From: Acidobacteriota bacterium
GTDB taxonomy: Bacteria; Acidobacteriota; Vicinamibacteria; Vicinamibacterales; UBA8438
NCBI GenBank assembly: GCA_009861545.1
Contig: VXME01000125.1
Span: forward strand, 1 to 54,018
Direction: 5' to 3'
Length of the DNA: 54,018 bases
Numbering within the stretch: position 1 is the stretch's first letter; the number at the start of each line of letters is the position of its first letter. Made by a program: the position numbers and the translations under genes. Shown here in pieces: positions 32,679-50,918 of this stretch. Below the pieces are notes generated by a model. That model worked only from the letters and a program-made list of their open reading frames with translations, had not been told where the DNA came from and did no database searches.

Positions 32679-34838
32679 ATGAGCCGTCGCGCTTTGCTTG
32701 CAGTGTGCGTATACGCCGGCATCACGCTGGCGACGGGATATCCCGGCCAGGCGCAGGTCCGGGACCCTGCCCCGGTCACCGATGCGATGCTGCAGGATCC
32801 CGACCCCGCCGACTGGCTGAGCTGGCGGCGCACCCTCGACGGATGGGGGTACAGCCCGCTCGACGAGATCGACCGCGGCAACGTGGACGAGCTGCGTCTC
32901 GCCTGGTCCTGGGGCCTCGAACCCGGGGTCTCGCAGACGACGCCGCTCGTGCACGACGGCTTCCTGTACGTCGCCAACCCGGGCAATGTGGTCCAGGCGC
33001 TCGACGCGCGCACCGGCGACTTCGTTTGGGAGTATCGCCGCGAGATGGACGAGCGGCTCCGCAGCTCGGCGCAGATGCGGAGCCTGGCCGTCTACCAGGA
33101 CCTGGTCATCCTGAACACCTACGACGCCCACATCGTCGGGCTGGATGTCCGGACGGGCGCGGTGCGCTGGGAGACCCCGGTCGGGGCCGACCAGGAGGGG
33201 TACACGTTCTCGAGCGGACCGATCGTCGTCGACGGAACGATCGTCGCCGGGATGACGGGCTGCGGGCGCTACCGCGACGACACCTGCTACATCGTCGGCG
33301 TCGACGGCCGCACCGGTCGGTTGTTGTGGCGAACCTCGACCATCGCTCGTCCCGGCGAGGCCGGCGGCGACACCTGGGGCGACCTGCCCCTCATGTTCCG
33401 CGCCGGAAGCGACGCCTGGATGACGGGGAGCTACGACCCGGTCACCCGGCTCGTCTACTGGGGCACGTCGCAGCCCAAGCCGCACAACCGCGACGCGCGC
33501 GGCACGGACGGTGACGCGCTCTACAGCAACTCCACGCTGGCGCTCGACCCCGCCACCGGCGAGATGAGGTGGTACTACCAACACATCCCCGGCGATTCGC
33601 ACGACATGGACGAGTCGTTCGAGCGCATCCTGATCGACTACGACGGCAAGCGCTCGCTGTTCTCGATGGGCAAGCTCGGGATTCTCTGGGAGCTGGACAG
33701 CGTCACGGGAGCGTTCCGGCGCGCGATAGACCTCGGCTATCAGAACATCCTGGATGTCGACCCGCGGACCGGCGAGGTGACGCATCGCGACGGGATGCTG
33801 TCCGAGGTCGGCGAGGAGCTCTTCTTCTGCCCCAGCACCGGCGGCTTCAAGAGCCTGCGGGCGATGGCGTATCACCCCGGGACCGGCGCGCTGTACGTGC
33901 CGCTGAATCTGAACTGCGAGACCGCCGCCTTCGCTCCCGTCGAGCGACGCGCCGGGGGCGGCGGGGGTGGCGCCGTGCGCGGCCGGCTGAACCACTTTCA
34001 TCCACAGGCGCCAGGTCAACTGGGCGAGTTTCAAGCGCTGGACGTGCGGACCGGCGAGACTCTCTGGCGCCACCGTCTCCGCGTGCCCTACAACACGTCG
34101 GCGTTGACCACCGGCGGCGGCCTGGTGTTCATCGGCGACTGGGGGCGGCACGTCTACGCCTACGACGCGCTGAGCGGCGAGCAGCTCTGGCGCAGCCGGC
34201 TCTCGACGATGGCGAACGGGTACCCGATCACCTATGCCGTCGACGGCAGGCAGTTCGTCGCGTTCGTGGCCGGCCCGTCGATCGGCGGCTCGAGCTGGGC
34301 GACGATTCTCCCCGGCGACCTCCTTCGCGAGGAACGCAACCCGCGGGGCGGCAGCGGCGTCTTCGTGTTCGCGCTGCCCGCGGGCGCGGCGGCCGCGCGG
34401 TCACCTGACCTGCCGGGGGTGGCGCGGGTGACCATCGAGGTGGAGCTGTCGTGTCCCTCTTGCGCCGCTGGACTCGAACGGCGGCTCCGCCGCGTGGACT
34501 ACGTCTCCGGTGTGGAGGTCAGCCCCGCCGACGGGCGGATCGTCCTCGCCGTCGAGCCCGGTCGCCATCTGGACCCGGCGGCGGTGTGGGACACGGTGCG
34601 CAACGCGGGCTTCATTCCCGACCGCATGGCGGTCACCGCCATCGGACACGTCATCGACAGGAACGGCGCGCCGGCCCTCGCTCTGTCGCCCAACTTCGCC
34701 CTCCCGCTCGTCGAGACGGACGGCCTCACGGCCACGGCGGCCGAGGCCGGCGACCAACTGGTTGAGGTGACCGGACACTGGAACGCGGCGCCGGACGGCG
34801 CCGGACGGCTGCAGGTCGAGTCACTCGACGTCCGTTAG
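32679..34838 (+). CDS. PQQ-dependent dehydrogenase fused to an HMA metal-binding domain (719 aa)
   Basis: A signal peptide is followed by a quinoprotein propeller of about 560 residues with repeats such as VVQALDARTGDFVWEYRRE and PLVHDGFLYVANPGN. D309 and D311 (HDMDESFERIL) stand at the place of the catalytic Asp and the lanthanide-binding Asp of XoxF. At about 581-650 a heavy-metal-associated domain follows, with a CPSC motif (592-595) in VTIEVELSCPSCAAGLERRL, then a tail of 70 residues of unknown type. PQQ dehydrogenases oxidise alcohols or aldehydes in the periplasm. The HMA part could deliver or sense a metal; this is inference. The fusion is unusual. Confidence 0.88.
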   Translation: MSRRALLAVCVYAGITLATGYPGQAQVRDPAPVTDAMLQDPDPADWLSWRRTLDGWGYSPLDEIDRGNVDELRLAWSWGLEPGVSQTTPLVHDGFLYVANPGNVVQALDARTGDFVWEYRREMDERLRSSAQMRSLAVYQDLVILNTYDAHIVGLDVRTGAVRWETPVGADQEGYTFSSGPIVVDGTIVAGMTGCGRYRDDTCYIVGVDGRTGRLLWRTSTIARPGEAGGDTWGDLPLMFRAGSDAWMTGSYDPVTRLVYWGTSQPKPHNRDARGTDGDALYSNSTLALDPATGEMRWYYQHIPGDSHDMDESFERILIDYDGKRSLFSMGKLGILWELDSVTGAFRRAIDLGYQNILDVDPRTGEVTHRDGMLSEVGEELFFCPSTGGFKSLRAMAYHPGTGALYVPLNLNCETAAFAPVERRAGGGGGGAVRGRLNHFHPQAPGQLGEFQALDVRTGETLWRHRLRVPYNTSALTTGGGLVFIGDWGRHVYAYDALSGEQLWRSRLSTMANGYPITYAVDGRQFVAFVAGPSIGGSSWATILPGDLLREERNPRGGSGVFVFALPAGAAAARSPDLPGVARVTIEVELSCPSCAAGLERRLRRVDYVSGVEVSPADGRIVLAVEPGRHLDPAAVWDTVRNAGFIPDRMAVTAIGHVIDRNGAPALALSPNFALPLVETDGLTATAAEAGDQLVEVTGHWNAAPDGAGRLQVESLDVR

Positions 34839-36072: not shown

Positions 36073-38250
36073 CTAATCACCCTCCGGCAGTGCAAAGACG
36101 TACAGCGCGTTGCCTCCCTCCGGCTGGAAGACCTCCGGGACGAGTTGGGCGGTCAGGCCCCGGAAGGCGCCCCCCAGCGAGGCCGGCACGGCGAGGAACT
36201 GCCGCCCACCCACCGCGTAGGTCATCGGGTACCCGTGCGCCGCGGCGCCGAGACGCGTCTCCCAGAGCACGTCCCCGGTCCGGATGTCGAACGCCCGGTA
36301 GTAGCGGTCGGCGTCGCCAGCGAAGACCAGGCCGCCGGCCGTCGTCAGCGTCGACGTCAGGAAGGGGGCGGGCTGCTCGCGGCTCCACAGCTCCTCCATG
36401 GTCCGCACGTCGTAGGCGGCCAGCTTGCCCACGTTGCCGTCGCTGCCCGGCATCTCGCGGAACTCGGAGCGGCCCGCCGCGCCGCCGCCGCCCTCGACGA
36501 ACTCCACCTCGCGCCCGGTCAGGTACATGCACGCCTGGTGGAGGGGAATCACCAGCGCGTGGGCGCCGGGGTGGTACGCCGACGCCTGCCAGTTGTGGCC
36601 GCCGAGCAGACTGGGGCAGGCCGGCACGCGATCGCCGATGCGGGCGTCGATGATGTCCTGCCGGTAGGTCAGCTCGCCGGTCGTCCGGTCGATCGCGGCG
36701 AAGACGTCCTGGTAGACCGTCTCGCGCAGGTCGACGAAGGCCCCGGTCCGCCGGTCGAGCTTCCAGAGAATGCCGTCCTTGCCGATGGTGAACAGCCACC
36801 TCTCGTCGCCGGAATCGACCAGGACGCGCTCGTAGACGATGTCGAGGTCGAGCGTCTCGCCCGGCGCGTGCTGGAAGTACCACTGGACCTGTCCGGTCCG
36901 CGGGTGAAACGCGAGCGTCGAGTTGGTGTAGAGCGCGTCCTGCCGCGTCGTCATGCCGCGGCTGGCCGCCACCCACGGCTTGGCCTGCGCCGTGCCTATG
37001 TAGAAGAGGCCGAGGTCCGGGTCGTAGCTGCCCGGGATCCACGAGTCGCCGCCCGCACGCAGATACGGCGGCGTGTCGCCCCACGAGGCGTCGTTCGGAT
37101 CGCCCGGCAGGGCGATCGTCGACGTGCGCCAGAGCTCCTCGCCGGTGTCCGGGTCGTGGCCGGTGATGAAGCAGGTCTGCTCCTTGTAGCGGTTGCAGCC
37201 GTTCATGCCGCTGACGACGACACCCTCGGCGACCACCGGACCGGAGTTCTGGCGGAAACCCTGCGTGTAGTCCGCCTTCACGGCGCGCCACGCCTCGGCG
37301 CCGGTTCGCGCCTCGAGCGCGACGAGCGCCGCGTCGTGGGTGGCCAGGTAGACCTTGTCGCCGTAGAGCGCCAGGGTGCGGGTCGCCGCCCGCTGCGGCG
37401 CATCCTCCGGCAGCGGCCACCGATACTGCCAGATGACGTCGCCGGTGAGCGCGTCTATCGCCTGCACGACGTTGCCGGGGCTGGCCAGGAACATCACGCC
37501 GTCGTGCACCAGCGGCGTGGTCTGGTTGTTCCCTTCCCGGATCGCCAGGGTCCAGGCAAGCTGCAGTTGGCCGACGTTGTCGCGCGTGATCCGATCGAGC
37601 GAGCTGTAGCCGTGACTGTCGCGCGTCCGCCGCCAGCTCAGCCAGTCGCCCGGGGGCGGGTCCGCGAGCATCTCGTCGGTCACCGGACTCAGCTCGTGCG
37701 GCACCTCCCGGTTGACGAACCGCGCCGGCCGCCGCCGGGGCACCTCGCCCGCCTCGGCCGCACGCCGCGCCTCGGCGATGTCCGCCGCGTCGCCGATGGT
37801 GACCGCCGCGTCGGCCGTCAAGGGCGCGTCTCCCGGCCGGCCGCCGTTCGCGTCCAGGAGGTAGGCGACCAGGTTCAGATAGACCTGATCGCCGAGCGAT
37901 CCGCCGCCGCCGGGCGGCATCGTATCCCGCAGGTAGGTAAACAGCTCGTCGGTGGTCTGCCCCGCCCAGCCGTTCAGGAAGTCGACCCCGCGCAGGGCCG
38001 GCGCCTCCGCGCCGTCCAGCGTCTCCCCATGGCACTCCCCGCACTGCCGGGCATACACGGTCCACCCGGCCGCGGCCTGCTCGGCCGTGAAGCCCCCGTC
38101 CGCTCCCGGGGCCTGCGCCGCCGCCGCGACACTCGCCGGCGGGACACGCGGTTCGCCGAGGGAGCCGACCACCGCGACCAGTGCGGCGACCGCCACCCGA
38201 ACCACCGCCGCAGCGACGCCGACGCGAGTTCCCTTCGACATGATCGCCAC
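36073..38250 (-). CDS. PQQ-dependent dehydrogenase with N-terminal cytochrome c domain (725 aa)
   Basis: After a signal sequence (about 1-45) a small cytochrome c domain carries CGECH at 70-74 and a MPPGGG methionine region. A quinoprotein propeller of about 530 residues follows from [19 protein letters not shown]468 and D470 ([11 protein letters not shown]) align with the catalytic and lanthanide-site Asp of XoxF. Most quinohemoproteins carry the cytochrome at the C-terminus, so this order is a variant. It should oxidise an alcohol or related compound in the periplasm. The second ATG at 38241 is an alternative start. It shares family features with the PQQ-HMA protein. Confidence 0.9.
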
Positions 38251-41970: not shown

Positions 41971-44199
41971 TCAGTTCGCCAGCGGGTGCGGCCGGAACTG
42001 GAACTTCACGAGAATCGGCTTCGAGATCGACCGGTACTCGCCGTTCTCGACGGCGAATCCGTCCTCGGCGTGCCAGACGGTGTCGGACCCGGTCGACGAA
42101 TAGACGCCGCGTCCCTTCCAGCCGGCGTCCGGATCGTCGATGCGGCCGTCGAGGCCCCGCGGGTGGAAGCCGGCCAGCGGATAGGGCACGCGCATGACCA
42201 CCGTCTCGCCGGTCTCCGGCAGCAGCGCCACCAGCGAGTCCGAGCCCGTGCCGGTGGCGATCGGCACGTTTTCGCCGAGTCCCAGCGTGTCGAACTGGTC
42301 GACCCAGTTGTAGTAGTTGTAGTCGGCGCGGACGTCGGTTCCCTTGAAGACGGGGCCCGGCAGCGGATGCAGCGTCCACCCTTCCGCGCAGTGCCGGCCG
42401 GTGTGCGCCGCCGGCCCGGTCAGCGGCCCGCACTTGCTGTGGTCGAAGCTCGCGAGATGGTTCGTCCCCGACAGCGCCGTCCAGAGGACGCCGTTGCGGT
42501 CCACGTCGAGGCCGCGCGGCATGAAGCCGCGCTCGCCGCCCGCCTCCACGTCCCAGCGCTCGGAGGGAACCTCGAACACCTCGGCGATGCAGCTCTCCGG
42601 CGGATCGTCGCCGACCACCAGCCGCACGATCCGGCCGGGATAGGAATCCTGCGCGCCCCAGACCGACCCGTCGACCGGGTTGACGATGATTCCATACGCA
42701 CCGACCGCGACGCGCGTATCCAGCGTCGGATCGAAGTCGTAGGTGCTACGGGTGGCATCCTCCTCGAAGCGGGCGCCGCCGATGACGGACGGCTCGTTCC
42801 ACGGCTTCGTGATGCGGCCGTCGCCGTTGGTGTCCACCACGGTCGGGCACCAGCCCTGCGCCAGCCTCGCGTCGCCGGTCTCGTGGAAGAGCTTCGTGTC
42901 GACCCAGCCGAACACGTCGCTGTTGGGCCGGCTGAGGAACAGGGTCTCGTTCTCGTCGAACCCGAACTGCAGGTGGTGGCTGCCGAAGCAGGTGTCCACC
43001 ATCGTGAATTCCTCGGTCTCGGGGTCGTAGTAGCTGACGTTGCGGCCCGACCGCGTCACCGGGAAGTACCGCGCGTACGGGTTGTCGGAGCCCTCCAGGC
43101 ACCAGTCCGGCTGGTTCTCCGGGGGACGCAGCGTCGCCGTGTACCAGACCCGGCCCCGGCTGTCGAGCATCGGGTTGTGGATGCTGGCCGGGTTGAAGCG
43201 GGCCAGATCCGCCAGCCGTGACGCGGGGTAGCCCGACTGGGCGTACGACGCCCGCATCGTCGAGCGGTCCGCCAGGGTCGGGATGCGCACCATCGTCGCC
43301 GTGTGGGTGTTCGGATCGAGGATGGCGAGGTTGTCGTTGGCGATGTCCACGCCGTAGATCGGGCCGTTGGCGTTCACGGTGGGGTTGCGCTTGTCGGTGG
43401 ACGCCTCGTCGTGAATCTTGCCCATCTCGTCGGTCCACTCCCACTGGGTGAGGACCAAGTTGCGCTCGACCCCCTCCGGGCGCGGCGGCGCAGGCGGCGC
43501 CTCGCCGGTCGCGATGCGGTCGCTCCAGTCGGCGAACATCGCCAGCCCGCGCTCGCGCCCGAAGCGCGACATCCACATGCTCATCTCGGCCCCGCGCTGG
43601 CCCATCCGCACCCGTTCGTCCCAGGCGTCGACGGCCGAGTCGTACTCCTCGGCATTCGGGTGCCCGCGCGTGAACTCGCCGCCGACCTGGTGGCAGCGCA
43701 GGCAGGCCTTCACGTTGTAGAGGTACTCGTCGCGCGTCCGGAGCTGCTCGCTGATGCCGTTGCCGTCGGGGCCGGTGCCCGGGAACTCGTCCGCCTCGGG
43801 CGGCTCGATCAGCGACAGCCAGTGGGCGGCCGGATAGATCGCCGCGGCTTCCTGCGGGGTCTGCGCGGCGGTGGCGGTCAAGCGCACGTCCTCACCGGGC
43901 GCCGCCGTCACGGGCGTCGAGTCGACCAGCCCATAGCCGCGGACCCAGACCGAGTAGGTCGCTTCCGGGAGCTCCGGGACCAGGAACCGCCCTTCGTCGT
44001 CGGTGACCACGATCTTGCGGAACTTCGTCGGCAGGTCACCGGTCTCGGCGATGACCCAGACGCCGGCTTCCGGACCCGCGCTGCTGGAGACGACGCCGGC
44101 GATGGTCGAGCGAGCGCCTTCCTGTGCGCCCACCACGAGCCCCGCGGTCCCCAACGCCAGGAGCATCGCAACCGTCAGCCGTTCGAGTCTTCGTCGCAT
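41971..44199 (-). CDS. secreted carboxypeptidase-regulatory-like/Vgb-like propeller protein with one heme c site (742 aa)
   Basis: The ATG at 44199 gives a signal peptide ending in VVGAQ; the longer frame from 44400 has no signal. Residues 30-110 form a Greek-key regulatory domain (TIAGVVSSSAGPEAGVWVIA). One heme-binding site, CLRCH, lies at 166-170. A large propeller follows (from about 270), with YGVDIANDNLAILDPNTHT and later FMPRGLDVDRNGVLWTALSG, like virginiamycin B lyase-type propellers. The protein may transfer electrons or bind a substrate in the periplasm; an enzyme activity is not established. Confidence 0.85.
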   Translation of the reverse strand: MRRRLERLTVAMLLALGTAGLVVGAQEGARSTIAGVVSSSAGPEAGVWVIAETGDLPTKFRKIVVTDDEGRFLVPELPEATYSVWVRGYGLVDSTPVTAAPGEDVRLTATAAQTPQEAAAIYPAAHWLSLIEPPEADEFPGTGPDGNGISEQLRTRDEYLYNVKACLRCHQVGGEFTRGHPNAEEYDSAVDAWDERVRMGQRGAEMSMWMSRFGRERGLAMFADWSDRIATGEAPPAPPRPEGVERNLVLTQWEWTDEMGKIHDEASTDKRNPTVNANGPIYGVDIANDNLAILDPNTHTATMVRIPTLADRSTMRASYAQSGYPASRLADLARFNPASIHNPMLDSRGRVWYTATLRPPENQPDWCLEGSDNPYARYFPVTRSGRNVSYYDPETEEFTMVDTCFGSHHLQFGFDENETLFLSRPNSDVFGWVDTKLFHETGDARLAQGWCPTVVDTNGDGRITKPWNEPSVIGGARFEEDATRSTYDFDPTLDTRVAVGAYGIIVNPVDGSVWGAQDSYPGRIVRLVVGDDPPESCIAEVFEVPSERWDVEAGGERGFMPRGLDVDRNGVLWTALSGTNHLASFDHSKCGPLTGPAAHTGRHCAEGWTLHPLPGPVFKGTDVRADYNYYNWVDQFDTLGLGENVPIATGTGSDSLVALLPETGETVVMRVPYPLAGFHPRGLDGRIDDPDAGWKGRGVYSSTGSDTVWHAEDGFAVENGEYRSISKPILVKFQFRPHPLAN

Positions 44200-44314: not shown

Positions 44315-44518
44315 ATGCGGCGCGCCGCCGAACAGTTCCTGGCCCGGCATCCCGTCGTCACGCCATCGTCGACGCCGTGGCGGCCACCGGTATCGGACAC
44401 GGTCGGCTGGCGCGGACTGAGTCACGAAGCGCTCCGGGAGGCTGCACTCGACGACCTCGAGGCGCGGACGGTCGAGGCGCTTCGAGAGACCACACACCCG
44501 GCGAGGCGTCGGCGGTGA
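44315..44518 (+). CDS. putative antitoxin upstream of a PIN toxin (67 aa)
   Basis: The ATG at 44315 has GGCGGAG upstream. The protein has a short N-terminal helix, a Pro-rich middle and a charged C-terminal helix (HEALREAALDDLEARTVEAL). Its TGA overlaps the GTG start of the toxin (GTGA). I do not recognise the family, so the antitoxin role rests on coupling with the PIN gene. Confidence 0.55.
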   Translation: MRRAAEQFLARHPVVTPSSTPWRPPVSDTVGWRGLSHEALREAALDDLEARTVEALRETTHPARRRR

Positions 44519-44955
44519 CGTCGTTCGACACCAACGTCCTGCTCTTCGCCTTCAGCCGGGCCAGTCCCTGCCACGACCGGGCCCGCGTCTTTCTGGAAGA
44601 CCTGACCCGCCGCGACGATGTCGCCGTCTCGGAGCTGGTGCTGGTGGAGTTCTATGCGCTGCTGAGGAATCCCGCAGTGCTCCTCCGCCCGCTGCAGGCC
44701 GCCGCGGCGGTCGAGGTCGTGCAGAGGTACCGCCGCCATCCGCGGTGGATGCTGGTCGGGTTCGACCCCGAGAGCACGGCGCTGCACGACGAGCTCTGGC
44801 GGCTGGCCGCCACGGCGCGCTTCGCCCGGCGCAGGATCCACGATGCACGCTTGGCCCTGTCGTTACGGCGACAGGGCGTCACGGAATTCGCCACGGCCAA
44901 CGTGAAGGACTTCGGCGGCTTCGGCTTCGATCGGGTCTGGAGCCCGGTGGAATGA
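44515..44955 (+). CDS. VapC-like PIN toxin (146 aa), GTG start
   Basis: D5 in TSFDTNVLLF, Glu in VLVEFYALLRN and Asp in RRIHDARLAL are PIN active-site residues; the last acidic residue is probably the Asp in NVKDFGGFGFDR. Length is normal. The GTG at 44515 overlaps the stop of the preceding gene. The protein should be an RNase held inactive by the upstream partner. Confidence 0.82.
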   Translation: MTSFDTNVLLFAFSRASPCHDRARVFLEDLTRRDDVAVSELVLVEFYALLRNPAVLLRPLQAAAAVEVVQRYRRHPRWMLVGFDPESTALHDELWRLAATARFARRRIHDARLALSLRRQGVTEFATANVKDFGGFGFDRVWSPVE

Positions 44956-45071: not shown

Positions 45072-45647
45072 GTGACACGCAAGGAGTCGGTGCAGAAGCA
45101 GGTGCTCGCCGCGGCGCTGCGCCTCTGCGAAACCAGGGACGACTGGACGTTCACCCCCGCGGAGATCGTGCGTTCGTTGCCGGGCGTGAACGAGGCCACC
45201 GTGCGCACGGAGGTCACCGGACGGTGCTGCGTGAACGCGCCCGACCATCACGCACGGCGCTGGCCGTACTTCCGCCGCGTCGACCGTGGCCGCTACCGGA
45301 TCGAACCCGCGTTCCGCGAGCGCCCGCCGGCATCCGACGGCTCGCGATACGCCGGCGTACGACGTGCCGCGGTACCGCGGGCCGCCGAATCCGCGCCGGC
45401 GTACGGCGAAGAGACCGTCGAGACTCGCAACACGATTCACGCGGTGGTGACAGAGAGCCAGGGATGGTACGTCGCCGAGTGCCTGGAGCTCGCGGTTGTC
45501 ACCCAGGCGCGGTCGTTCGACGATCTGCTCGTGAACCTTCGCGACGCGCTGGCGTTGCACATGGAAGGCGAGGACCCCGCCCGGCTCGGCGTGTCGTCCG
45601 CACCGCGCCTGTCGGTGAGCTACGAAACGGCGCCCCTCGGGGTCTGA
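45072..45647 (+). CDS. HicB-type antitoxin with extra N-terminal winged-helix-like domain (191 aa)
   Basis: The GTG at 45072 follows AAGGAGAG. Residues 1-75 (MTRKESVQKQVLAAALRLCE then EIVRSLPG and RRVDRGRYRIEPAF) resemble a DUF7669-type winged helix. A linker follows, then the HicB fold from about 115 (IHAVVTESQGWYVAECLEL and FDDLLVNLRDALALHM). Common HicB proteins are much shorter or have an RHH/HTH at the C-terminus, so DNA binding seems to be supplied by the N-terminal domain here. It should neutralise HicA and repress the operon. Confidence 0.82.
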   Translation: MTRKESVQKQVLAAALRLCETRDDWTFTPAEIVRSLPGVNEATVRTEVTGRCCVNAPDHHARRWPYFRRVDRGRYRIEPAFRERPPASDGSRYAGVRRAAVPRAAESAPAYGEETVETRNTIHAVVTESQGWYVAECLELAVVTQARSFDDLLVNLRDALALHMEGEDPARLGVSSAPRLSVSYETAPLGV

Positions 45648-45672
45648 CGCCGGGTTGCTCAACTGGCCGCCC

Positions 45673-45915
45673 ATGCCGCGCCTGCGACGGCTCTCGTCCC
45701 GCGACGTGCTGCGCATCCTCCACCGGTTCGGTTTCGAGGTCTTTACGCAACGGGGCAGCCACGCCAAGCTGGTGCGAGTCTCGGCGGGCGAGCGCCAGAT
45801 CCTGATCGTTCCCCTGCACCGGAATTTGGCGACGGGCACCTTGCAGGCCATCTACCGGCAGGCGGCGCGCCTTGTGCCCTCGGTCGATCTGCGGCGTGCG
45901 TTCTTCCTCGATTGA
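45673..45915 (+). CDS. hicA: HicA-type mRNA interferase toxin (80 aa)
   Basis: The ATG at 45673 gives MPRLRRLSSRDVLRILHRFG then RGSHAKLVR with the catalytic His at 30, and VPLHRNLATGTLQAIYRQA, the classic HicA pattern. HicA binds and cleaves mRNA. It follows hicB by 25 bases, the reversed order (hicB first) that is common. Confidence 0.88.
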   Translation: MPRLRRLSSRDVLRILHRFGFEVFTQRGSHAKLVRVSAGERQILIVPLHRNLATGTLQAIYRQAARLVPSVDLRRAFFLD

Positions 45916-45923
45916 GGGAATGG

Positions 45924-47204
45924 CTACCAGTCGATCCGGCCGGGGTCGCCGGCGTAGACCGAGCGGATGAACGCCAGGATCTGCCAGACTTCCTCGTCCT
46001 CGAGCACGCTGTAGACGGTCGGCATCGTCTGCTCGGGGATCTCGCCCTTGATGAGCCGGAACAGCACGTCGTCGTCGCTGCCGAACGTCCAGGCGTCGTC
46101 GATGACGGAGGTGGCCATCCCGCCGCCGCCCCCGCCGCCGTGGCAGCCCTGACAGCCGACCTGGAAGTACAGCGTCCTGCCCTCCGCGGCCATGTCCGCG
46201 TTGCCGGTGAACGGGTTCAGCTTCCGCGGCCCGGGGGTCGGCGGCGGATCCGCGGCCGCCGCCGCAGATGGCGGCTCAAGCTGCGCCGCCTCCTCCGGTG
46301 CGGCCTCGGCGTTCGGGTCCGCGGCGCCGGAAGCGCCGGCAGCGGGGGAGGCGGCGGCGCCCCCGCCGGCAGGAACGAGCGGCACGCCGTACTCCTCCAG
46401 AATCGCCAGAATCTCCGTCCGCCGCCGGTCGATCGCCGTCTCCAGCCGGTCCTTCAACGCCTCGTTGCCCTTCGCGACGCCCATCGAAATGTCGAAGGAC
46501 AAGGGCACCCCCGGCTCGTCCTCCAGCGGGACCAGCTCGAGCGGCGCGCCCGACGTCGCGGCGGCGTAGCCGGCCAGGGGACCCCACGCGACGGCGACGT
46601 CCACCGTTCCCGCCGCCAGGTCGTCGAGCAGCTTCCGGGGACGGTCCCGATCGCCCCGCGGGTCGAAGAACAGCGAGTAGGTCGAGACGTTGTCGAGCAG
46701 GCCGCGCCGCGCGAGGCTCTCCTCGGGCGGCGTGTTCACGTGGACGCCGATGCGAAGCTCTTGCAGTCCCGGCGCGTCCAGCGACGGGAGGTCGTAACCC
46801 CGGTCGCCGCGGTAGGCCATGACGTAGGCCGAGCGGTAGTACGGCCTCGTCCACAGGACGAAGTCGAGACCTTCGGGAACCCCGAAGATGACGTCGCAGG
46901 TCCCCGCGTCGATGGTGTTCCGGACGAGCCCCCGCTGGTGGGGCCACCAGGCGTAGACGGGCGTGGCGCCGAGCTCGGCGGCGACCACGGCGGCGATTCT
47001 GTTCTCGAACCCCTCGAGCCGTTCGTTCGAGTACGGCAGGTTGTCGGGGTCGCCGCAGACGCGCAGCTCCGGCGACTGCGCGAACACGGCGCTGGTCGAC
47101 GGCGCCAGCGCCACCGACAGCGCAAGCGCCGCCGGCAGCGCACAGGCTCCGACCGCGGCGACAACCCTCCCGGCGGCGATGACGCTCCTGAAGGAACGGG
47201 TCAC
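45924..47204 (-). CDS. fused XoxJ-like periplasmic binding protein and XoxG-like cytochrome c (426 aa)
   Basis: After a long signal region (about 1-43) the XoxJ/MoxJ-type part spans 45-275: LRVCGDPDNLPYSNERLEGF, YAWWPHQRGLVRNTIDAGTC and VAWGPLAGYAA are family markers. An Ala/Pro/Glu-rich linker runs from 280 to 330. A small cytochrome c domain follows, with CQGCH at 351-355 and an EQTMP methionine as possible axial ligand. It starts 16 bases after the xoxF-like gene. In methylotrophs XoxG takes electrons from XoxF, and XoxJ is thought to activate it. Here both are joined in one chain. Confidence 0.85.
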   Translation of the reverse strand: MTRSFRSVIAAGRVVAAVGACALPAALALSVALAPSTSAVFAQSPELRVCGDPDNLPYSNERLEGFENRIAAVVAAELGATPVYAWWPHQRGLVRNTIDAGTCDVIFGVPEGLDFVLWTRPYYRSAYVMAYRGDRGYDLPSLDAPGLQELRIGVHVNTPPEESLARRGLLDNVSTYSLFFDPRGDRDRPRKLLDDLAAGTVDVAVAWGPLAGYAAATSGAPLELVPLEDEPGVPLSFDISMGVAKGNEALKDRLETAIDRRRTEILAILEEYGVPLVPAGGGAAASPAAGASGAADPNAEAAPEEAAQLEPPSAAAAADPPPTPGPRKLNPFTGNADMAAEGRTLYFQVGCQGCHGGGGGGGMATSVIDDAWTFGSDDDVLFRLIKGEIPEQTMPTVYSVLEDEEVWQILAFIRSVYAGDPGRIDW

Positions 47205-47220
47205 GGCAATCTCCGTGCGC

Positions 47221-49008
47221 CTACTCGAGCGCGAAGACGTGCAACGTGCCGCCCACGGAGGTCACCCTGTCGAGCCCCGAGTCGTAGGCGGCGCCGACCG
47301 CACCGAGCGCCCCGAGCGGATCCTCGCGCGAGAGGTCCGCCGCGACCGGGAGGCCGAACCACCCGCCGATTCCGGAATAGATCGCGACGTACTGCTTCCC
47401 GTCCGGCGCCCGGAACGTCATGGGGTTGCCGATCGAGCCCGACGGCAGCCGCGAGCTCCACAGGATCTCTCCGCTCCTCGCGTCGACGGCCTTGAACCAG
47501 CGGTCCATGGTCCCGTAGAAGACCACGTCGCCGGCCGTGACCAGCGTGCCGGTCCATACCGGAAACGGCTCGGTGATCCCCCAGACCTTCTCGGCGGCGG
47601 CCGGATCCCAGGCCATGAACTCGCCCTGGTAGCCGCCCGGACCGGCGAAGATCCGCACGTTCGCGCCGACGTACGGGGCGCCGGCGATGTAGCGCACCTC
47701 GAAGCCCTCGTAGTTCATGCACAGGTTGTTCGTGCCGGCGTAGATCAGGCTGGTGCGGGGCGAGAACGACACGGGCTGCTGGTTCTTGGCGCCCATCGCG
47801 GAGGGGCAGATGTCCAGGGTGTTCACGCCCTGCCGGGTGCGCTTCTCGGGAACCTCCACGGGGCGGCCGGTCTCCAGATCGATGCGTTCGGCCCAGTTCG
47901 TGTGCTCCACGAACTTCTCTGCCGACAGCAGCGTGCCGTCCGCGCGGTCGAGCACGTAGGCGAAGCCGTTGCGGTCGAAGTGCACGAGCGCCTTCACGTC
48001 CCGCCCGCCGATGTTCAGATCGAGCAGCACGTGCTCGTTGATGCCGTCGTAGTCCCAGGCGTCCCACGGCGTCATCTGGTAGGCCCACTTCGCCAGGCCG
48101 GTATCGGGATCGCGGGCGAAGATGGTCATCGACCACTTGTTGTCGCCCTCGCGCGGGGTCGGATTCCACGTCCCGGGGTTGCCCGTGGAGTAATAGATCA
48201 GGTCGAGCTCGGGGTCGTAGGCATACCAGCCCCACGTGGCGCCGCCGCCGTTCCGCCAGCGGTCTCCGGGCCACGTCTCGGTGCCGTCGCCGGGCCCGCC
48301 ATGGTGGGGATTGGCCTCGTTGAAGTCGGGGGCCAGCATGACGTCCTCGTCCGGACCCATGCTGTAGGCCTTCCAGAGCTGCTCGCCCGACTCGACGGCA
48401 TAGGCGGCCACCCAGCCACGGATGCCGAACTCGCCGCCGGAGACGCCCACGATGTACTTGTCCTTGACCACGAGGCCGGCCATCGTCATCGTCTCACCCC
48501 GCAGCGGGTCGGCGTTCCTGACGTTCCACAGCTCCTCGCCGCTCTCGGCGTCGAGCGCGATGACGTGTCCGTCGAGCGTCGTCATCAGGATCCGGCCCTC
48601 GACGTAGTTCACGCCGCGATGGACCAGGTCGCAGCAGGCGACCGGCACGGCGCGGTCGTCCTGCACGGGCGTGTACCGCCACTTGATGGGCCAGTCCTCC
48701 TCGGTGAGGTCGATGGCGTACACGTGGTTGGGGTACGCGCTGTGCACGTACATCGTCGAGTCCACGACCAGGGGCTGCCCCTCGTGGCCGCGCAGCGCAC
48801 CCGTCGAGAACGACCACACCTGGGTGAGATTCGCGACGTTGTCCGCGGTTATGTCATCGAGCGAGCTGTAGCGCGTGGCCGAGTAGTTCTTCCCCGGCAA
48901 CACCCACTGGTCGTCGTCGCTCTGCCGCGAGACCAGATCGTCGTTGGCGGCGAGCGCCAGCGGCAACCCCAGCGCCAGAACCGCGATGGCACAGATGCTT
49001 CGCTTCAT
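47221..49008 (-). CDS. xoxF: XoxF-type lanthanide-dependent alcohol/methanol dehydrogenase (595 aa)
   Basis: The ATG at 49008 follows AAGGGGAA and opens a signal peptide (MKRSICAIAVLALGLPLALA). Landmarks are the adjacent cysteines VACCDLVHRG (125-126), metal-ligand Glu in GGEFGIRGW, Asn in STGNPGTWNP and the catalytic pair D319/D321 in WDYDG. The Asp two residues after the catalytic Asp marks lanthanide enzymes; calcium-type MxaF has Ala there. The enzyme oxidises methanol or other short alcohols in the periplasm with PQQ. A fused XoxJ-XoxG gene follows, so the locus is a compact xox operon. Exact substrate is not known. Confidence 0.88.
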   Translation of the reverse strand: MKRSICAIAVLALGLPLALAANDDLVSRQSDDDQWVLPGKNYSATRYSSLDDITADNVANLTQVWSFSTGALRGHEGQPLVVDSTMYVHSAYPNHVYAIDLTEEDWPIKWRYTPVQDDRAVPVACCDLVHRGVNYVEGRILMTTLDGHVIALDAESGEELWNVRNADPLRGETMTMAGLVVKDKYIVGVSGGEFGIRGWVAAYAVESGEQLWKAYSMGPDEDVMLAPDFNEANPHHGGPGDGTETWPGDRWRNGGGATWGWYAYDPELDLIYYSTGNPGTWNPTPREGDNKWSMTIFARDPDTGLAKWAYQMTPWDAWDYDGINEHVLLDLNIGGRDVKALVHFDRNGFAYVLDRADGTLLSAEKFVEHTNWAERIDLETGRPVEVPEKRTRQGVNTLDICPSAMGAKNQQPVSFSPRTSLIYAGTNNLCMNYEGFEVRYIAGAPYVGANVRIFAGPGGYQGEFMAWDPAAAEKVWGITEPFPVWTGTLVTAGDVVFYGTMDRWFKAVDARSGEILWSSRLPSGSIGNPMTFRAPDGKQYVAIYSGIGGWFGLPVAADLSREDPLGALGAVGAAYDSGLDRVTSVGGTLHVFALE

Positions 49009-50085: not shown

Positions 50086-50277
50086 ATGCACGCCGCCGTG
50101 CGCCTGACGTCAAAGCGTGGCTGTATCAATGGCCGGCGGCACCCGGACGGGGCGTGGGTGCTCTTCGCGTCGGACCGCGACGGCGCGGAGACGCTGTGGC
50201 TGATGGACGTCGAGTCGCAGGTGACCCGGCAACGGCGCCTGTTCGACGCCGACACGTGGCAGCGCGAGGCCTGCTAG
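50086..50277 (+). pseudogene. fragment of a TolB/PD40 propeller gene
   Basis: One PD40 repeat is clear (HPDGAWVLFASDRDGAETLW), with LMDVES after it, but the frame is only 63 residues and lacks a signal peptide or further repeats. It probably represents the 3' end of a lost propeller gene. Its last bases overlap the end of the convergent PCYCGC gene. Confidence 0.5.
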
Positions 50278-50918
50278 TTGGCCGGGGCAGGCGGCAGCGG
50301 GGTCGGGGTCTGCCGCTCGTAGGCGGCGTACGTGGACTCGACGGCGGTCCGGACATCCTCTACCCGAGCGCCGGACGCCCGCAGCCGCATCGCGTGACGC
50401 GCGACGTCGATGCACACGATGCAGGCCATTCCGTGGGTGTCCCACTCGCGCACGCTGCCGTCCGGATTGCGCGACTGCACGAAACAGTCCGAGTTGCGCT
50501 TGTGGCCGCGAGTCTCGCACCCGCAGTAGCACGGCACGTAGTCGAGCACGTCGGGATTCTGCGCGGCGAAGATGTACGCGTCCCGGATGTCCTGCGGCGA
50601 ACGGGGCACGAGATTCGACACCAGGGGCAGCGGCGGCAACGGCGCGTCGGCCGCCGGGATCGGCGTCGGCTCGCCCGCCGGCGGGGGAGCTGGACGCTCC
50701 GAGTTCGCGACGCTCTCGTCGCCGGTCTCGGACGCGGCGGAGGCCAGCTCGCCGTCCGGGGAGCCCGGGGTGTCGCTGCTCGACGGAAGCAGCACCAGCG
50801 CGGCCGCTACGGCCACTATCAGCAGACCGCCGATCAGGATCCAGGGAGGTCCGCCGCTTGCCGGCTCCGACTGCGGAACCGGCGCCTTCGACACACGTGA
50901 TCTCTTGCGCCCACCCAT
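50274..50918 (-). CDS. PCYCGC-motif membrane-anchored protein (214 aa)
   Basis: A basic start and one hydrophobic segment (about 25-45, ILIGGLLIVAVAAALVLL) anchor the protein. A Pro/Ala/Glu-rich linker follows. The conserved part begins at VPCYCGCETRGHKRNSDCF and continues to HGMACIVCIDVARHAM, with seven Cys in total. The PCYCGC family is found in Firmicutes and other bacteria; it may bind metal or heme, but its role is unknown. Three Cys-containing clusters suggest metal binding outside the cytoplasm. Confidence 0.8.
   Translation of the reverse strand: MGGRKRSRVSKAPVPQSEPASGGPPWILIGGLLIVAVAAALVLLPSSSDTPGSPDGELASAASETGDESVANSERPAPPPAGEPTPIPAADAPLPPLPLVSNLVPRSPQDIRDAYIFAAQNPDVLDYVPCYCGCETRGHKRNSDCFVQSRNPDGSVREWDTHGMACIVCIDVARHAMRLRASGARVEDVRTAVESTYAAYERQTPTPLPPAPAN

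Follow-up and report, generated by a model that had tools for sequence, protein, structure and literature searches.

A two-gene xox operon

The window analysed here, a stretch of 54,018 nucleotides from an Acidobacteriota genome of the order Vicinamibacterales (contig VXME01000125.1), carries xoxF (47221–49008 (−), 595 amino acids, ATG at 49008 and TAG at 47223–47221) directly upstream of xoxJG (45924–47204 (−)), a single open reading frame that starts with GTG at 47204. Exactly 16 bases (47205–47220) separate the two genes, and a GGAG within this gap (47211–47214 (−)), read from the sequence 6 nt before the GTG, is the likely ribosome-binding site of xoxJG. The open reading frames and domain matches confirm what had been proposed from the sequence at first reading: a compact operon in which XoxJ and XoxG form one chain of 426 residues, 16 bases after xoxF.

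The XoxF protein scores 677.1 bits against TIGR03075 (cut-off 480.05) and so has the PQQ methanol/ethanol dehydrogenase fold; its best match among solved structures is 4MAE (857 bits, runner-up 656), XoxF of Methylacidiphilum fumariolicum SolV. Residues E193, N277, D319 and D321 align with E172, N256, D299 and D301 of the SolV chain. The extra lanthanide aspartate, D321, is thereby kept two residues past the catalytic D319, and the adjacent cysteines 125–126 are present. In a tree of 87 XoxF proteins, the window sequence falls in an 18-row XoxF2 clade (support 100) together with Methylacidiphilum, Methylomirabilota and a Rokubacteriota metagenome-assembled genome (MAG). We classify the enzyme by its sequence as a lanthanide-type PQQ methanol dehydrogenase of the XoxF2 clade. 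Our tree places enzymes of this clade in Acidobacteriota, Methylomirabilota and the Rokubacteriota MAG, whereas Verrucomicrobiota were the sole group with XoxF2 in a survey of aerobic methane oxidisers (PMC12482762).

The XoxJG chain begins with a predicted signal peptide (47076–47204 (−), residues 1–43) of low pLDDT, in which arginines are followed by a long Ala/Leu/Val stretch up to AVFAQ, and which would export the entire chain. The XoxJ domain (46374–47069 (−), residues 46–277) has a full-length periplasmic-binding-protein fold, covering positions 1–232 of the 232 of TIGR03871 (287.6 bits, cut-off 212) and matching the XoxJ structure 6onp with E=1.8e-51. In an AlphaFold2 model of the chain, built on a 44-row alignment, pLDDT is mostly above 90 in J, below 50 at residues 283–320 and 71–91 in the cytochrome. 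Fold comparison (VIA) gave Z scores of 28.2 to MxaJ (5sv6), 27.1 to XoxJ (6onp) and 24.4 to the MxaJ chain in the complex with MxaF (9ism); unrelated binding proteins reached about 20, with 5sv6 and 6onp 6–8 above them. The Foldseek and VIA lists for the model were taken up by J-domain matches.

Between the two domains lies a linker of about 50 residues (46224–46373 (−), residues 278–327), 88% of which are P, A, G, S, T or E. It is predicted to be disordered, and the low pLDDT bears out the flexibility that had been claimed for it. The XoxG-type cytochrome c domain (45927–46223 (−), residues 328–426) has no signal peptide of its own. It exceeds the cut-offs of PF13442 (38.6 bits) and PF00034 and has one CxxCH motif, as in a mono-heme class I cytochrome; further matches are 7c90 and cytochrome c-L. 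The heme-binding motif CQGCH (46140–46154 (−), residues 351–355) and Met394 in QTMPTVY (46023–46025 (−)) are invariant in the window's family and, by analogy with class I cytochromes c, Met394 is the likely distal heme ligand. The domain scores 48.4 bits against TIGR03872, an equivalog model of the MxaG/MoxG type rather than of XoxG as such, versus a cut-off of 147.8. The name XoxG instead reflects its place in the operon and its 43–48% identity to cytochromes encoded next to xoxF2 genes elsewhere.

Conservation in the family

A complete fusion in one frame without an internal stop is found in the window genome (G000) and in G027, G010, G025, G008 and G006; in G002 and G007 the fusion reaches contig ends and is incomplete. 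J is thus fused in all eight family genomes in which it was found, with four genera represented. An uninterrupted frame across the family is explained neither by chance nor by read error, and conservation in eight genomes rules out an assembly error, including the read errors joining two genes that the original prediction had named as a way in which it could fail. Pairwise dN/dS is 0.09–0.20 for J, 0.09–0.23 for the cytochrome and 0.36–0.70 for the linker, the length and sequence of which differ between species. By these ratios, both J and the cytochrome are under purifying selection and the linker alone drifts.

About 20 of the 28 family genomes lack xoxJG and any other J, and two hold decayed copies, so that the system is dispensable in the family. 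G025 carries, besides its intact gene, a second, frame-shifted xoxJG without an xoxF of its own (L055 4331-5355(-)), and G011 retains a relic of only the last 25 or so codons (L056 7490-7717(-)). No larger conserved operon was found: the neighbours of xoxF–xoxJG vary among the family members examined, with a Sel1 protein as the only partial recurrence. Record names suggest that the family, which consists of uncultured bacteria, comes from marine-sponge metagenomes.

A proposed origin from a tandem gene pair

The sister to the family's system, and the closest XoxF outside the family (72% identity), is that of a Rokubacteriota genome (L067). There, J and G are separate genes, with the ATG of xoxG five bases ahead of the TAG of xoxJ (an 8-base overlap), and, by our reading of the sequence, G has its own hydrophobic leader before a KLNPFTG motif. 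In the window chain, KLNPFTG comes straight after the linker, which implies that J lost its stop and G its leader, and that the chain would consequently be exported by the J leader. We propose that a tandem xoxJ–xoxG pair gave rise to the fusion within this Acidobacteriota family by these two losses.

In other Vicinamibacterales families, whose xox systems do not belong to the XoxF2 clade, J and G are separate genes, in several cases with a 4-base overlap. Their systems were rejected as a source of the fusion, despite the shared order, because their XoxF lies outside that clade (L058, L059, L061) and because their J has an insertion, GDD..N, that is missing from the window J. The window J is also nearer to the J of f28 (54%) than to that of the sister families, a further reason for the rejection. 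A search of plasmids returned only separate J, in proteobacteria.

Recurrence across phyla

A XoxF2 profile scan of 84,980 named genomes yielded 80 loci, and 87 loci, picked by XoxF2 similarity, were surveyed. A J:G fusion stands beside xoxF in 19 of the 87, the window included. These are found in Vicinamibacterales (L062-L065), Binatota (L078, L080-L084, L086), a Myxococcota MAG (L074), two ‘Deltaproteobacteria’ MAGs (L098, L101) and four Gemmatimonadota MAGs (L104, L107, L126, L135). The search for such fusions in other Acidobacteriota that had been suggested at the outset has therefore an answer in two parts: among the Acidobacteriota sampled, the fusion with a complete J is confined to the window's family, the other J of the same order being separate from G, and it recurs in other phyla.

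The fusions of Gemmatimonadota and ‘Deltaproteobacteria’ carry a different cytochrome type (GWKWFHVYCFRCHG). A single origin of all J:G fusions was rejected in the XoxF tree (one clade of fused rows, p=5e-10), in agreement with the two cytochrome types, and a clade uniting the fused Vicinamibacterales and Binatota was rejected in the XoxF tree (p=7e-47) and weakly in the J tree (p 0.01). On well-supported branches, the minimum number of state changes, which may include losses, is at least 5 in the XoxF tree, at least 4 in the J tree and at least 3 in the G tree; the trees were quick ones, and the fusion groups were named after the tree had been viewed. Because losses may be among these changes, we do not count events and put the number of J:G fusion groups, which together make up no single clade, at three or more.

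The reverse order also occurs. Methylacidiphilum (L071) and a lineage of Acidobacteriota with small genomes (L047) both have a cytochrome followed by a truncated J (G:J′), with a separate full J besides. One genome of small-genome Acidobacteriota (G172) has both orders with truncated J (L047 7466-8428, L049 1844-2914): its G:J′ adjoins a XoxF2-type xoxF and its J′:G another PQQ dehydrogenase that is only distantly related, and a full J is encoded separately in both cases. In Entotheonella, which also has separate xoxJ and xoxG, a G:J fusion lies about 3 kb away from xoxF (L088 1542-2759(-), L091 1564-2721(-)); its J is near-complete and joins the cytochrome without a linker.

Separate fusion events strengthen a functional reading more than a single case would, as comparative evidence for a common site of action, and their repetition hints that J and G are both active on the enzyme, next to each other. 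The fusion had been put forward as direct evidence that XoxJ and XoxG act together on XoxF. That wording was too strong, but the idea itself stands in a weaker form: as a ‘Rosetta Stone’ case, the fused sequence indirectly supports joint action at XoxF.

Genome context

The window genome, which is 99% complete, encodes only one TIGR03871 protein, which leaves every task of XoxJ to the tethered J. The genes pqqC and pqqE lie side by side elsewhere in the genome, and PQQ can therefore probably be made. Searches of the genome gave no match to Fae or formate-THF ligase and matched FDH-alpha only below the cut-off. Use of methanol as a carbon source is accordingly not supported, nor does this gene content, with Fae and formate-THF ligase not found, favour regarding the host as a methylotroph; an alcohol as energy source is the safer reading. 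The genome has 41 PQQ-propeller matches, one of which is XoxF-like, and two more PQQ dehydrogenases lie in the window (32679–34838 (+) and 36077–38250 (−)), one with an N-terminal cytochrome c.

Several other genes flank the operon. Convergent to xoxJG is a HicA toxin gene (PF07927, 51.7 bits) with a HicB-like open reading frame bearing DUF7669 ahead of it (45072–45914 (+)), and beyond these lies a PIN-domain-like open reading frame (44506–44955 (+)). In an exported protein of 742 amino acids (41971–44199 (−)), a CLRCH heme motif accompanies a carboxypeptidase-regulatory-like domain; the remainder of the protein had no family match. Two genes upstream of xoxF is a gene for a PCYCGC-motif protein (50277–50918 (−)), which was not seen beside xoxF in the family members fetched.

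A proposed role for the tethered cytochrome

For XoxJ, loading of cofactors into the apo-enzyme, an adapter function for the cytochrome, or both are under discussion. On methanol with La, M. extorquens without xoxJ or without xoxG behaves like the strain that lacks xoxF1 xoxF2 (PMC7391723). MxaJ has been proposed as an adapter between methanol dehydrogenase (MDH) and its cytochrome, a contact that salt weakens in marine settings (PMC9728263).

We propose that XoxF oxidises methanol or another small alcohol (the substrate is presumed) in the periplasm and that its partner would be one exported chain. The complete XoxJ would dock on XoxF in the way that MxaJ binds MxaF, and the disordered tether of about 50 residues would keep the cytochrome near the PQQ site, where it could collect electrons at a high effective concentration. 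Mergers of this kind would have taken place separately in other lineages, J and G having one place of work on XoxF. This arrangement is the reading we favour, with a probability of roughly 0.57: J would remain docked during turnover, the cytochrome would be mobile on its tether, and the tether would speed up electron transfer. The failure of the cytochrome domain to reach the curated MoxG cut-off counts against it, as does the dispensability of the system in the family, and a helper in maturation could be absent while electrons are transferred. We hold more tentatively, at somewhat less than even odds, that XoxJ, besides being an assembly helper, stays in place as a docking subunit and presents the cytochrome to XoxF.

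Among the alternatives, the one that survives best is that the fusion concerns only maturation and stoichiometry. J would open apo-XoxF for PQQ and the lanthanide, the fusion would secure equal amounts and shared export, and the cytochrome would dock by itself, with the tether playing no part in electron transfer. XoxJ and MxaJ may indeed bind partly folded apo-MDH and aid insertion of PQQ and metal (PMC12997753), and a long, variable linker imposes no fixed geometry. The occurrence of both orders and of different cytochrome types points, however, to a shared site of action, and stoichiometry alone fails to explain the truncated J′ on the Methylacidiphilum cytochrome beside a separate full J (PMC6688271). 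We regard this explanation as unlikely, if well short of negligible.

A neutral merger would need no functional meaning at all: a small deletion or indel would join tandem, overlapping J and G genes, and the resulting protein would simply be tolerated. The nearest possible G start is 10 bases or fewer from the J stop in 16 of the 41 separate loci with J–G order, −4 overlaps included, and fused and separate forms intermingle in Gemmatimonadota. As the two genes are often only a few bases apart, fusions may form easily without benefit, and the J:G order on its own is weak evidence. Against this stand the fusion of every J found in the family, across four genera with both domains under purifying selection; the reverse order in Methylacidiphilum, f28 and Entotheonella, which read-through of a J–G pair cannot give; and the removal of the G leader, which was not kept as an internal hydrophobic segment. 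A neutral merger therefore seems distinctly improbable. Cleavage in the periplasm after export, yielding mature separate J and G as usual, would be helped by a linker that is long, predicted to be disordered and so likely accessible to proteases, yet no conserved cleavage motif is present in the linker across six species, and we consider cleavage very improbable.

If XoxJ is such a lasting docking subunit, the repeated fusions across several phyla, irrespective of order, mark a ternary XoxF–J–G electron-transfer unit, of which the Vicinamibacterales form would be a minimal two-gene version. With one J per genome, always tethered, the maturation and bridging roles must both suit a 1:1 chain. 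A natural, single-copy, full-length J:G chain also offers a clean test, because an uncut chain obliges J to take the cytochrome along whenever it departs.

Comparison with known systems

In Methylacidiphilum, a XoxG:J fusion is encoded in an operon of the form xoxF-J-G:J, in which the J part is truncated and a full J is separate (PMC6688271); the XoxG–XoxJ fusion is also described in PMC8498564 and PMC8170126. The fused product, cytochrome cGJ, was purified from strain SolV (PMC8779874, which cites Versantvoort 2019). With this fusion in print, fusion as such is not new. For the J:G order, we found no report in the open-access literature, and a Binatota paper that reports XoxG and XoxJ does not contain the words ‘fused’ or ‘fusion’ (PMC8262859).

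Cytochrome cGJ of Methylacidiphilum (SolV, Kam1, V4) resembles the window chain in joining G-type and J-type domains beside a xoxF of the XoxF2 clade, and the G domain of Methylacidiphilum sp. Yel (L071) is 43% identical to that of the window. In cytochrome cGJ, however, the cytochrome comes first, J′ is truncated and a separate full xoxJ precedes it, whereas the window chain has a full J at its N terminus, the cytochrome at its C terminus and no second J. The separate xoxF-xoxJ-xoxG operons of Rokubacteriota (L067), Methylomirabilota (L072/L099) and other Vicinamibacterales families have the same three functions and gene order as the window, but with J and G as two genes instead of one chain. 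XoxF1–XoxG–XoxJ of M. extorquens shares these functions, and its XoxJ (6onp) the same fold (Z 27, 44% identity); unlike the window, it has a XoxF5-type enzyme and unfused genes in the order xoxF-xoxG-xoxJ (PMC7391723). The MxaF/MxaJ complex (9ism) likewise has a J homologue bound to a methanol dehydrogenase, although there the enzyme is of the MxaF (Ca) type and J is not fused to a cytochrome. The novelty first attached to the fusion is thus reduced in part: a G:J fusion had been published for Methylacidiphilum and the idea of fusion was already known, but the J:G order carrying the genome's only, full-length XoxJ is new, as is the survey across phyla.
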